Shown piece by piece: positions 14,165-52,817 of a DNA stretch of 64,000 bases. Origin of the DNA: Halobaculum sp. CBA1158 (GTDB lineage Archaea > Halobacteriota > Halobacteria > Halobacteriales > Haloferacaceae). A program made the position numbers and the translations under genes. A model generated the notes under the pieces. The model searched no databases and was not told where the DNA came from. It saw nothing but the letters and a program-made list of their open reading frames with translations. The DNA is taken from positions 248,001-312,000 of the forward strand of contig NZ_CP090371.1 in assembly GCF_021431925.1 (NCBI RefSeq). The letters are read 5' to 3'. Within the stretch, counting starts at the first letter, position 1; the number at the start of each line of letters is the position of its first letter.

Positions 14165-14797
14165 ATGACCTTCGAGGGGCGGCCCGACCGGGACGCGGAG
14201 GTCGTCCTCGTCGGGCGGTCGAACGTCGGCAAGTCGACGCTGATGCGCGAGCTGACCGGCCACGACGTGGCGACGGGCAAGAAGCCGGGCGTCACCCGGA
14301 AACCGAACCACTTCGACTGGACCGGCCAGTCGTTCATGTTCACGGACCTCCCGGGGTTCGGATTCATGTCCGGCGTCGAGGAGGAGCAGCGCGAGGCGAT
14401 CAAGACGGACGTGGTGCGCTACGTCGAGAAGAACGCCGACTCGATCATCGCGGGCGTGCTCGTCGTCGACGGGAAGTCCGTGATCGACATCATCGACCGG
14501 CACAGCGGCGAGGGCGAGATCCCGCACGACGTGGAGCTGTTCGGCTTCCTCCAGGACGTGGACGTGGCTCCGGTCGTCGCGGTGAACAAGATGGACAAGG
14601 TGGACGACCGCGACGAGCGCCTGAACGAGCTGTGCGACCGGCTGGGGCTGTACCCGCCGTGGCAGCAGTGGTCGGGCGAGGGCGGAACGATCGCGCCGAT
14701 CACAGCGAAGAAGGGTCGGATCGAGCCGCTGAACGAGGCGCTCCGGGGGCACTTTCGGGAGGCGAAACGCGACGACCTGTTGCAGTTCGTGAAGTGA
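14165..14797 (+). CDS. engB: EngB-type ribosome-assembly GTPase
   Basis: A 210-residue single G domain of the YihA/EngB family, which helps mature the large ribosomal subunit. Motifs in order: P-loop GRSNVGKST, switch I Thr in [18 protein letters not shown], and NKMDKVDD, then ITAKKG near the end. The EngB-specific PGFGF sequence is clear. It starts 136 bases from the divergent cyclo-ligase-like gene. TATA-like CTTATC lies about 30 bases before the start. Confidence 0.92.
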
Positions 14798-15191
14798 CCT
14801 CGATCCGATCGCCGTCCGGGTCGGGACCGCCGTCCGGGTCGGGACCGTCGTCCGGGTCGGTTCGACGACCTCGGCGGCGACGCTCTCGAACGCCCCCGGC
14901 ACGTCGGCTCCTTGCGGTTCCACCCACAGCGACTGCACCCGCCTGCACCGCGCCTCGCCCTCCCCAGCCGCCTCACTCCCTCGCTTCGCTCGGTCGTTCG
15001 CCCCTCGCACGCGGCGGCCGCGCACGAGGCGCGGCCGGTCGCGCGCCACCGCGGTCGCGCTCCCGCGCACGCAGTCTCCCCATCCGTCCTCAGTAGCCGG
15101 ACTATCCGTCCCCGGTAGCCGAACCGACTCCCGGTCGACCACCGTCAGAGTACGAGCGTTTATCCCGGAGAACGCCTCACCCTCGCACAGG
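14798..15191. other. 394-base intergenic region with repeats
   Basis: No gene seen. It holds three copies of an 18-base tandem unit (14811-14864, unit beginning GCCGTCCGGGTCGGG), then the dispersed element core (14953-14970) followed by self-complementary CTCGCTTCGCTC-type sequence, then the promoter of the RecJ-like gene (box GTTTATCC near 15159, about 30 bases before the ATG). Confidence 0.6.
14953..14970 (+). repeat. Dispersed element core CCTCGCCCTCCCCAGCCG (copy 2)
   Basis: Identical over 18 bases to 9128-9145. The flanks here are longer and include GCTCCTTGCGGTTCCACCC before the core and alternating GCTCGCTTCGCTCGG after it, a pattern I recall from other haloarchaeal intergenic regions. 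Confidence 0.55.
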
Positions 15192-49933: not shown

Positions 49934-50566
49934 TCACCCGATGTCGACCCGTCCGCTCGTCGCCGAGCGCAGGCGATCGCGTAGCTCCGGCGCATCGGCG
50001 ACGGGAACGCGCGCTTCGAACGTCACCTCGGCGTCGTAGTCGGCGTCGAACTCGACGTCGGTCGACTCGAGGACGCTCCTGACGGTACCGGAGTCGTCGT
50101 ACGCGACCGTGAGCGAGACGTGCTCGTGTGGCCTCTCCTCGACGACCCCTGCGGCGTCGACCCCGTCCTTCACCCCGCGGGAGTAGGCCCGTGCGAGCCC
50201 GCCGACGCCGAGGTTCGTCCCGCCGTAGTAGCGCGTGACGACGGCGACGACGTTCCGGATCTCCTGCTGTTGGAGGACGTTCAGGGCGGGCTTGCCCGCT
50301 GAGCCGGTCGGCTCGCCGTCGTCGCTGGCGTACTCTCTGAGCATGACCTCCCCGGTCGACCGCGACGCGCCGTCGTCGGCGGGGACGCGGTACGCGGGGA
50401 CGTTGTGCGTCGCGTCGTCGTACCCCGTCTCGACCTCGTCGACGAACGCCTCCGCCTCGGCGACGCCGTCGGCCGGTGCGACGTGACCGATGAACCGCGA
50501 TCCCCGGATCGCGAACTCGGCGGACGCGCGTTCGGCGACGGTTCGGTACGGCTCAGGCGACGCCAT
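49934..50566 (-). CDS. IMPACT/YigZ-family protein
   Basis: A 210-residue protein with an N-terminal UPF0029/IMPACT domain (RGSRFIGHVAPADGVAEA, then THNVPAYRV and DDGEPTGSAGKPALNVL) and a small ferredoxin-like C-terminal domain. Bacterial YigZ and eukaryotic IMPACT are implicated in translational control; the archaeal role is unknown. The GGTNLGVGGLARAY loop is well conserved. The ATG at 50566 is chosen; the longer frame lies in the next gene's promoter. Confidence 0.88.
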   Translation of the reverse strand: MASPEPYRTVAERASAEFAIRGSRFIGHVAPADGVAEAEAFVDEVETGYDDATHNVPAYRVPADDGASRSTGEVMLREYASDDGEPTGSAGKPALNVLQQQEIRNVVAVVTRYYGGTNLGVGGLARAYSRGVKDGVDAAGVVEERPHEHVSLTVAYDDSGTVRSVLESTDVEFDADYDAEVTFEARVPVADAPELRDRLRSATSGRVDIG

Positions 50567-51189: not shown

Positions 51190-51690
51190 TCAGAACTCGA
51201 CGCTGCGCACGTACCCGAGCTCCCGGATCGCGACGAGCAGGTCGCCCGGGAGTTCCTCGTCGGTGATGAGGTACAGCTTCGGTTCGTCCGCGAACTCCGG
51301 GTCGTCCGAGAGCACCTGCCGTAGCGAGATATCCGCGTCGGCGAGCATCCCCGTGATCTCGGCGACGATGCCGGAGGCGTCGGGGTCGCCCACCTCCACG
51401 GTGAGCACGGTCAGGTCCAGCACCGGCGCGAGGTCCATCAGGCTCGCGACGGCTGTGATGTTGGCGAAGATCCGGCGGAGCTGCTCGTCCGCCCGGATCG
51501 CCGTCGTCGTCGTGTCGACGACGCGGCGGTCGACGCCCGCCTCGCGGGCGATGCCCGTGTCCGGGATCTCGATCCCGCCGGAGACGACGCGGCCCTCCTC
51601 GTTCACGGAGAAGCCGCGCTCGAGCAACAGCCGTACGACCGCCTGCTGCCCGGGAGAGCCCTCGAACTTCTCCATGATCTCGTCGAACAT
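51190..51690 (-). CDS. ACT-domain regulator of amino-acid metabolism (HTH-ACT)
   Basis: A 166-residue protein. An N-terminal wHTH-like region (EKFEGSPGQQAVVRLLLERGFSV) and a repeat (PDTGIAREAGVDRRVVDTTTTAI) precede a C-terminal ACT domain (LTVLTVEVGDPDASGIVAEITGML and DEELPGDLLVAIRELGYV as landmarks), which binds amino acids. In haloarchaea such proteins act on amino-acid gene expression; targets here are unknown. The ATG at 51690 is used. A continuous frame extends another 149 codons upstream, but it only reads through the 63-base repeats and is not part of the protein. Confidence 0.82.
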   Translation of the reverse strand: MFDEIMEKFEGSPGQQAVVRLLLERGFSVNEEGRVVSGGIEIPDTGIAREAGVDRRVVDTTTTAIRADEQLRRIFANITAVASLMDLAPVLDLTVLTVEVGDPDASGIVAEITGMLADADISLRQVLSDDPEFADEPKLYLITDEELPGDLLVAIRELGYVRSVEF

Positions 51691-51750
51691 CCGTGTCCGT
51701 CGTCGGCCACCTGCGGGCATAACTGTTCGGAGTCGATCGCTGATCGCGGG

Positions 51751-52080
51751 GTGCTCGCTTCGCTCGGTGACCGCCCGCTCACGGGTCGTTCCACTCCCCG
51801 TTCGCGTCCCGAGGTGCTCGCTTCGCCCGGTGACAGCCTGCTCACGGCTCCCTTCGGTCGCCGTTCGCGTCTCGAGGTGCTCGCTTCGCCCGGTGACAGC
51901 CTGCTCACGGCTCCCTTCGGTCGCCGTTCGCGTCTCGAGGTGCTCGCTTCGCCCGGTGACAGCCTGCTCACGGCTCCCTTCGGTCGCCGTTCGCGTCTCG
52001 AGGTGCTCGCTTCGCCCGGTGACAGCCTGCTCACGGCTCCCTTCGGTCGCCGTTCGCGTCTCGAGGTGCTCGCTTCGCTC
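51751..52080. repeat. Tandem array of a 63-base repeat (five units plus a partial sixth)
   Basis: Units start at 51751, 51814, 51877, 51940, 52003 and 52066, each with GTGCTCGCTTCG. Units 2-5 appear identical; unit 1 differs at several positions, and the sixth breaks off after about 15 bases. Because 63 is a multiple of three the array stays open in several frames and produces spurious long ORFs on both strands. It fills the divergent gap between the ACT gene and the zinc-finger gene at 52137. Sequence 51691-51750 and 52081-52099 holds no gene. Confidence 0.85.
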
Positions 52081-52099
52081 GCACCTCGCACACCTCACC

Positions 52100-52114
52100 C
52101 ACAACGCCCTTGTC
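52100..52114 (+). promoter_or_regulatory. Core promoter element CACAACGCCCTTGTC (second copy)
   Basis: Identical to 2828-2842 and at the same 37-base distance from a start codon (52137). It follows directly after the 63-base array. Confidence 0.5.
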
Positions 52115-52136: not shown

Positions 52137-52817
52137 ATGCGTGAACTCGACTGCGACTTCTGCGGCGCGACCGCCGCCGGCGCGTACGAGGTCGTCCCCG
52201 CGGACCTCGACCCCGCCCCCGACGAACAGGTTCGCGTCGTGCTGTGTCCCGCCTGTCGCGACACCCTCGACGACGTGCTCGCGCCCCTGCTGGACCGCCT
52301 CGACGCCGACGCGCCGACGCCCGAGTCGTCCGAGCCGCCGGCGATCGACGACGACGCGGCCGGACACGCCAGCCCCAACGCGTCGCCGCCGGCGGACGAC
52401 GGCGTCGACCACGACCCGGTCGACTCGGCGACCGACGCCGCCGGCCGCTCGCTCGCGGCGGCCGATCCCGACCCTGATCCCGACCCCAACCCCGACGCCG
52501 ATCCCGACCTCAACGGCGATCCCGAACCCGACGGCGACGACGAGAACGACGCCGACCCGGACGACCCCGCGGGTGCCGACGTATCGGCCGTCGCCGCCAG
52601 CGGGTCGGATGTCGCCGGCGGCGACGCGGAGCCGCCGGCGTTCCGGAAGGTGATGCGCCTGCTCAACAACCGCGAGTTCCCCGTCGAGCGCGCGGCCGTG
52701 ACGGAGTTGGCCGCCGGTGCATACGACCTCGACGACCGCGAGGTCGACGAGATACTCGAGCACGCGATCGACCGCGGGATCCTCGCCGAGGACGGCAACC
52801 GACTTCGGAAGGCCTGA
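52137..52817 (+). CDS. Zinc-finger and winged-helix protein with Asp-rich linker
   Basis: A 226-residue protein. The N-terminal zinc finger has CDFC (residues 5-8) and CPAC (about 40-43). A long Asp/Pro linker contains PDPDPDPNPDADPD. The C-terminal domain (about 168-226: FRKVMRLLNNREFPVERAAV and REVDEILEHAIDRGILAEDG) is a winged-helix-like fold. It may bind nucleic acid; no target is known. An upstream TTG at 52110 is rejected because the promoter element would overlap it. It ends 12 bases before hisB, convergently. Confidence 0.72.
   Translation: MRELDCDFCGATAAGAYEVVPADLDPAPDEQVRVVLCPACRDTLDDVLAPLLDRLDADAPTPESSEPPAIDDDAAGHASPNASPPADDGVDHDPVDSATDAAGRSLAAADPDPDPDPNPDADPDLNGDPEPDGDDENDADPDDPAGADVSAVAASGSDVAGGDAEPPAFRKVMRLLNNREFPVERAAVTELAAGAYDLDDREVDEILEHAIDRGILAEDGNRLRKA

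Follow-up and report, generated by a model that had tools for sequence, protein, structure and literature searches.

Extragenic palindromes of 20-40 nt that occur in tens to hundreds of copies per genome, clustered or in tandem and sometimes behind stop codons, are known as REP, BIME and REPIN elements (available parts of PMC2817692 and PMC12306157). According to the accessible portion of PMC2817692 (Table 1), the REPs of Citrobacter, Enterobacter and Klebsiella contain GCGAAGC, GCGGAGC or GCGCAGC, the first of which forms, as DNA, a mini-hairpin melting at 78 °C (PMC4686876, in extract). Haloarchaea harbor small transposase-free repeats, some with palindromes, namely the PATEs, MITEs and SMRs of Haloquadratum (PMC3119063, in extract), as well as intergenic terminators, of which those mapped in Haloferax volcanii are mainly T stretches (PMC7237163, in extract).

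The tandem array reported here lies in a 64,000-nt stretch of Halobaculum sp. CBA1158 (contig NZ_CP090371.1, positions 248,001 to 312,000), the whole of which is referred to as the window. Its unit is a copy of a hairpin family dispersed throughout the class Halobacteria and not a private satellite, which the preliminary description of this DNA had missed. The array alone is ordinary; what deserves attention is the family behind it. This family of GA hairpins resembles the REP-type elements in the properties named above, the Haloquadratum repeats in being small, haloarchaeal and transposase-free, haloarchaeal terminators in lying partly behind genes, and d(GCGAAGC) in its core, which is C-GNA-G with at least one further pair and with the loops GAA, GGA, GCA and GTA. 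Unlike in REP/BIME elements, the loop core is fixed while the stems are free. In contrast to d(GCGAAGC), a designed or in-vitro DNA motif in the extracts at hand, the GA hairpin is genomic and possesses an outer stem and GA/GA steps, its stability being predicted. Whereas the H. volcanii terminators contain T stretches, the GA-hairpin core is devoid of them, and whereas PATEs resemble IS605 ends (PMC3119063, in extract), no such link was seen, at the Y1 loci examined, for the GA unit of about 62 bp with its two hairpins.

A comparable dispersed palindromic family of haloarchaea was not found in the open-licence literature, subscription journals being beyond the scope of the search. The available text of PMC3733652, PMC6006769 and PMC12306157 contains no haloarchaeal family of this kind, and RepRanger (PMC12306157), which surveys archaea, is without any word beginning with "halo" in the available main text. 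The literal core strings retrieved, from the open-licence literature, only titles on human or duck genes. The GA-hairpin family seems undescribed so far.

A 63-bp tandem array between two divergent genes

The features of the locus are as follows (window coordinates):

51190-51690, minus strand: flanking gene, ACT-type, below the Pfam cut-off (Pfam, gene caller)
51719-51734, minus strand: conserved block ATAACTGTTCGG.GT. upstream of the ACT-type gene, probable core promoter (11-genome comparison)
51750-52078, minus strand: tandem array of a 63-bp unit, 5.2 copies (TRF, unit comparison)
51813-52064, minus strand: four identical units, 2 to 5 (unit comparison)
51844-51864, minus strand: type B hairpin copy 1, 5-bp stem, core GACCGAAGGGA, GA/GA outside the stem
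51907-51927, minus strand: type B hairpin copy 2
51970-51990, minus strand: type B hairpin copy 3
52033-52053, minus strand: type B hairpin copy 4
52062-52088, minus strand: type A hairpin, 8-bp stem, core GAGCGAAGCGA
52102-52114, plus strand: conserved block CAACGCCCTTGTC before the Cys-rich gene, probable core promoter (11-genome comparison)
52137-52817, plus strand: flanking gene without a Pfam family, two CxxC pairs close to its start (Pfam, gene caller)

TRF assigns to the array a period of 63, 95% matches, 0% indels and a score of 581, the highest of the 45 TRF rows for the whole window. Of the 63 positions, 52 are shared by unit 1 (51750-51812) and unit 2. Units 2-5 show no difference over their entire length, and a partial copy begins at 52065. 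The five units plus a partial one, the identity of units 2-5 and the divergent intergenic position had all been recognized in the preliminary description, and the recent local expansion proposed there is borne out by the identical units. The purine-rich, hairpin-forming strand is the minus strand. All four type B hairpins are intact; of the type A hairpins only the last one is, the internal copies being without one arm. Another 17 partial matches of the array region within the source genome gave the first indication that the unit also occurs elsewhere.

The gene names given earlier are confirmed weakly or not at all. An ACT domain is found weakly in the minus-strand gene (E 4e-4, below Pfam's cut-off), whereas the plus-strand gene, formerly named zinc-finger/winged-helix, belongs to no Pfam family at E 0.01. 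Inside this Cys-rich gene an 18-bp coding repeat rich in Pro-Asp is located at 52461-52537.

Rfam yielded three sub-threshold matches at E up to 1 between window positions 50000 and 54000, none of them within the array; one, to a CRISPR, sits outside it. A CRISPR array was rejected, as units 2-5 are identical and without unique spacers. An assembly artefact, which had been named as a possible refutation, is unlikely, since the source genome is in four contigs and the assemblies of other species carry different repeats of the same family at this site.

Comparison of the site among Halobaculum genomes

The site was compared in 11 Halobaculum genomes, including the source (G000), H. gomorrense (G001), H. 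litoreum (G004) and H. saliterrae (G009). The two flanking genes are divergent neighbors in all 11. The block ATAACTGTTCGG.. stands at an identical distance to the ACT-type start in every genome, and in 10 of the 11 searched CAACGCCCTTGTC or a close variant precedes the start codon of the Cys-rich gene by 21-22 nt, no such block being found in G002. The latter block matches the promoter element described earlier at 20 bases past the array; judged from position, it and ATAACTGTTCGG.GT. are probable core promoters. In the 10 genomes where both blocks were found, the filler between them measures 63-506 bp while the blocks keep their distances to the genes, so that length variation, anticipated between strains, is strong here between species.

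A hairpin is counted as strict if an inner-paired core is combined with an outer stem of at least 4 bp. At this site five strict hairpins are present in G000 and G001 each, four in G008 and G007 each, and one in G005, G009 and G003 each (the last with a 4-bp stem), while none was found in G002, G004, G006 and G010; all 21 share one strand. H. gomorrense possesses a different 63-bp unit of its own, and in G008 the spacing is 61 bp. In G007, inserts of 66 and 123 bp (L014:2117-2182 and 2287-2409) reside within the loops of two GA hairpins and have hairpins of their own and TTCGAG..CTCGAA-like ends, recalling the SMR-A elements that insert into Haloquadratum palindromes (PMC3119063, in extract).

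According to the preliminary description the copy number of the array could alter expression, which would mean a tuning of one or both divergent promoters. The end of the array does adjoin a conserved block and its length does differ between species; yet both blocks lie outside the array and are kept across fillers of 63 to 506 bp, and four of the 11 species are without a strict hairpin at the site, which makes such tuning distinctly unlikely. Among 76 further loci from the search with the ACT-type protein (L041-L116), the Cys-rich gene adjoins in 39, with spacers of 94-223 bp, and a strict hairpin is found in two (L064, L083), both without the Cys-rich gene next door.

Architecture of the hairpin

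On the purine-rich strand the hairpin reads stem - GA - N C GNA G N' - GA - stem', the stems being free but complementary. Its statistics were obtained from six genomes with 400 kb each, evenly spaced (2.4 Mb in total), a sample that is not independent because four of the six genomes are from one genus. The core occurs 289 times, 199 times with the inner pair. A stem of at least 4 bp surrounds 99 of the 199 inner-paired cores versus 1 of the 90 unpaired ones (Fisher p 1e-19), and 93 of these 99 hairpins are distinct, flanks included. Sixteen altered core patterns with 12-1314 occurrences each gave 0-8 cases with a stem, by which chance or GC bias as a source of the hairpins is rejected. The highest stem rates among them, ANA loop (8 of 22) and T-A closed (5 of 16), look like minor variants, and other altered loops seldom sit on stems (CNA 2, TNA 0, GNC 6, GNT 1). 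Ordinary hairpins with 7-bp arms and 11-nt loops show a slight excess over a Markov resample (126 vs 116 and 136 vs 112).

Within the 99 hairpins the N-N' pair is G-C in 53, A-T in 25 and C-G in 21, the loop is GAA in 33, GGA in 32, GCA in 26 and GTA in 8, and the base preceding GA is C in 84. A GNA loop closed by C-G with a second pair, as in the mini-hairpin, is given by construction of the motif. Two types are distinguished: the stem of type A measures about 7-8 bp and is often CGNGG.., while that of type B measures 5 bp and is bordered on the outside by a second GA/GA step. This outer step is found in 17 of 22 five-bp stems versus none of 68 stems of 4, 6, 7 or 8 bp. A second hairpin often stands a few nucleotides past type A in Halobaculum; by eye it is either of type B or a GGCGGCGAG..GAGCCGCC form, and the two together span about 62 nt, the length of the array unit.

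A chance sequence that slippage has multiplied into a plain neutral satellite with no structural meaning, or else an in-frame coding repeat, could be suspected from the identical tandem units, from a period divisible by three and from several frames that are open through the array. Both flanking genes start outside the array according to the gene caller, and a coding array is rejected because other arrays of the family have periods of 61, 70 and 77 (66 also occurs). As the core, the stems and the control patterns exclude chance, either origin is hardly credible.

Distribution in the class Halobacteria

A 25-nt covariance model, applied to Halobaculum at E ≤ 0.1 and to the class at E ≤ 0.01, gave 19-119 matches per genome among at most 150 scored candidates in all 11 Halobaculum genomes. 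Across the class, 114 of 116 genomes, representing 45 of 46 genera, have a match; at E ≤ 0.01 no match was found in G024 and G031. Outside the class, 5 of 124 genomes of the phylum have 1-7 weak matches, G178 being the only one with several (seven, best E 6.5e-4). Matches to a five-hairpin cluster of G008 (L032) occur on 13 plasmid records from Halobaculum and eight other haloarchaeal genera. In the source genome an 80-bp stretch at about L195:5208-5287, which recurs in G006 at two places with 98-99% identity and has similar counterparts in several other species, is likely a separate dispersed repeat.

Comparison with REP elements and IS200/IS605 ends

The palindromic, dispersed and extragenic nature of REP/BIME elements is found again in the GA hairpins, with 91 of 99 in intergenic regions and 19-119 matches per Halobaculum genome. 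For the elements to be REPINs, or IS200/IS605 ends moved by a Y1 transposase (RAYT or TnpA), would agree with their being palindromic, dispersed, polar and clustered, with the IS605-related PATEs known in haloarchaea (PMC3119063, in extract), and with Y1_Tnp matches in 6 of 11 Halobaculum genomes. Hairpins, however, are present in all 11: the five without a Y1_Tnp match carry 19-104 hairpin matches (G004 is 85% and G010 93% complete). At the six Y1 loci examined out of 10 matches no strict hairpin was found, neither as a PATE-like IS605 end nor as an element adjoining a cognate Y1 gene. The 5' flanks of 47 type A hairpins lack a GTAG/CGTC-type tag, with G at -1 in 37 and no consensus from -2 to -4. 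Unlike alternating BIMEs, 12 of 16 multi-hairpin clusters keep a single orientation and four are mixed. A Y1-driven origin is very improbable; the family works like REP/BIME elements but lacks three defining properties of the RAYT-associated kind. The GNA core of the enterobacterial REPs is perhaps a convergence on the same fold.

Placement relative to genes

The placement of the hairpins was derived from a purpose-written gene caller trained on acidic ORFs, with 2381 genes called. Intergenic sequence makes up 12.6% and harbors 91 of the 99 hairpins and 59 of their 64 clusters, of which 36 lie between tandem, 13 between convergent and 10 between divergent genes. The five clusters inside called genes (8 of 99 hairpins) are 17-36 nt from one end of the called gene, in four cases its start end, and possibly reflect miscalled starts. 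In the source genome, three GA hairpins (L201:11132-11291) are enclosed by a called gene, some 3 kb long, that runs on the opposite strand.

The clusters are polar. Where a stop codon is on the 5' side, 10 of 37 clusters start 0-3 nt past it, all of them sense. On the 3' side a gene end is never closer than 16 nt (25 cases) and a gene start never closer than 72 nt (34 cases); a second, non-strict hairpin, often located on the 3' side, may account for some of the polarity. At the 778 gene ends that are followed by 100 nt or more of free space, nine GA-core hairpins are found at offsets 0-4 and five at offsets 5-59. Since hairpins in general are only weakly enriched behind stops (43 in the first 5 nt vs 19-38 in later 5-nt bins), the stop-adjacent placement is particular to the GA-core family. 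Two single cases may be added. In G095 (L240:8720) the GA core sits on an 11-bp stem flanked by T- and A-rich sequence, at a distance of 16 nt to a stop codon, and perhaps forms a terminator. In G045 (L260:14540-14610, minus strand) a GA hairpin directly precedes a stretch resembling by eye the 3' half of a tRNA, where ARAGORN called no tRNA, the only one being tRNA-Gly at 14792-14863.

Such placement would suit a family acting primarily at the RNA level, as a 3'-UTR hairpin after the stop that serves mRNA protection or termination or slows translation, with the intergenic arrays as by-products. The concentration of GA-core and not of ordinary hairpins next to stops argues for this, as do the 10 of 37 clusters starting 0-3 nt past a 5' stop against none of 25 nearer than 16 nt to a 3' stop; E. 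coli REPs less than 16 nt from the stop codon lower translation (PMC12306157, in extract, citing earlier work). On the other side, 12 of the 36 clusters between tandem genes run antisense, and the space between divergent genes, in which the window array lies too, holds 10 of 59. The intergenic terminators mapped in H. volcanii are mainly T stretches, and one tested hairpin ends 59% of transcripts (PMC7237163, in extract). A gene start is on the 5' side in 22 of the 59 intergenic clusters, so that a 3'-UTR role cannot cover all; five of the 22, the window array among them, are at 40-48 nt from the start, about the edge of the core promoter.

Hairpins at orthologous gene ends

Two hairpin-bearing gene ends of the source genome, those of an HVO_2718-like regulator (PF24250) and of aconitase (PF00330), were compared across the 11 Halobaculum genomes. 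At both, the hairpin starts 0-2 nt past the stop. Behind the HVO_2718-like gene the strict motif is present in 5 of 11 species, with the stems CGAGGGC, CGAGACGC, CGAGGCC (twice) and CGGGGCC; G006 keeps the stem with an AAC loop, G002, G004, G008 (by an insertion) and G009 are altered, and none is found in G003. In G008 (L285) two GAGCGAAGCGAG cores enclose another hairpin pair, which gives the impression of an insertion or duplication within the first hairpin. Behind aconitase the strict motif is found in 4 of 11 species, among which G003 shows compensation in two pairs and G001 a stem of 4 bp; near variants occur in G006, G007 and G008, other pairable sequence in G002 and G004, and none in G009 and G010.

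Alignment A3 comprises the 25-nt cases at the place after the orthologous stops, 11 rows, to which the HVO_2718-like gene contributes 6 of 11 genomes and aconitase 5 of 11. Cases that were 27 nt long, inserted, extended, other or absent were left out (G002, G003, G004, G007 and G008 for the former; G002, G004, G006, G008, G009 and G010 for the latter). In A3, 96.0% of cells are paired versus 82.1% after shuffling and 30.3-41.6% after sliding, and five pairs change on both sides, which is reached by 1 of 500 shuffles; since place and length decided which rows entered, these figures are not fully free of selection for the hairpin. The covariation in alignment A1 is circular, because its rows were selected for pairing. 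For an action at the RNA level, the compensating stem changes at two orthologous gene ends are favorable evidence. The presence of the strict motif behind these stops in just 5 and 4 of 11 species speaks against the preferred reading given below.

Folding and proposed mechanism

Tandem G.A steps are stable following a pyrimidine. For three hairpins the energy model gave, for the purine strand versus its complement, -9.2/-8.8, -6.4/-5.3 and -7.6/-7.2 kcal/mol as DNA and -16.6/-14.5, -14.3/-9.7 and -12.9/-10.9 kcal/mol as RNA. The purine strand is thus predicted to fold better in all three, by little as DNA (0.4-1.1 kcal/mol, the core remaining unformed in the third hairpin) and by more as RNA. 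The preference in RNA, 3 of 3, is a further point for an RNA-level function of the whole family, which taken together is possible rather than probable.

The preferred reading, to which a probability of roughly 70% is assigned, is that the 63-bp unit is a dispersed, polar, two-hairpin element of the class Halobacteria that has been tandemly amplified at this locus, presumably by folding and slippage, and is most likely tolerated as a spacer. A single purine-rich strand, be it lagging-strand DNA or RNA, would fold into a stable stem closed by the C-GNA-G mini-hairpin and tandem G.A steps. Folding during replication, together with slippage or unequal exchange between identical units, would move the copy number up and down, and arrays would grow within the free space between the two core promoters. 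Behind stop codons the same fold has probably been selected as a 3'-UTR hairpin of the upstream mRNA, for protection, termination or translation control. We infer both the driving of copy-number change by purine-strand folding and the selection of the fold in mRNA behind stops. The window array, which is upstream of both genes, most likely does not regulate them but is an unstable spacer that is tolerated. Counting against the preferred reading are the small strand differences predicted for DNA, the gene starts on the 5' side of 22 of 59 intergenic clusters, the single genus behind four of the six sampled genomes and the 8 of 99 hairpins within called genes. More tentatively, the family may represent an undescribed, class-wide, GNA-capped hairpin with tandem G.A pairs that undergoes compensatory evolution behind stops and has a dedicated protein reader of RNA or single-stranded DNA, its arrays being selfish or slippage-driven.

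Haloarchaea are model archaea for genetics, yet no such dispersed palindromic family turned up in the open-licence literature. The hypervariable spacer and its tandem array are accounted for as expansions of a structured element, and the GNA-matching core with covarying stems in 114 of 116 genomes constitutes a testable candidate for a 3'-UTR or single-stranded-DNA signal.
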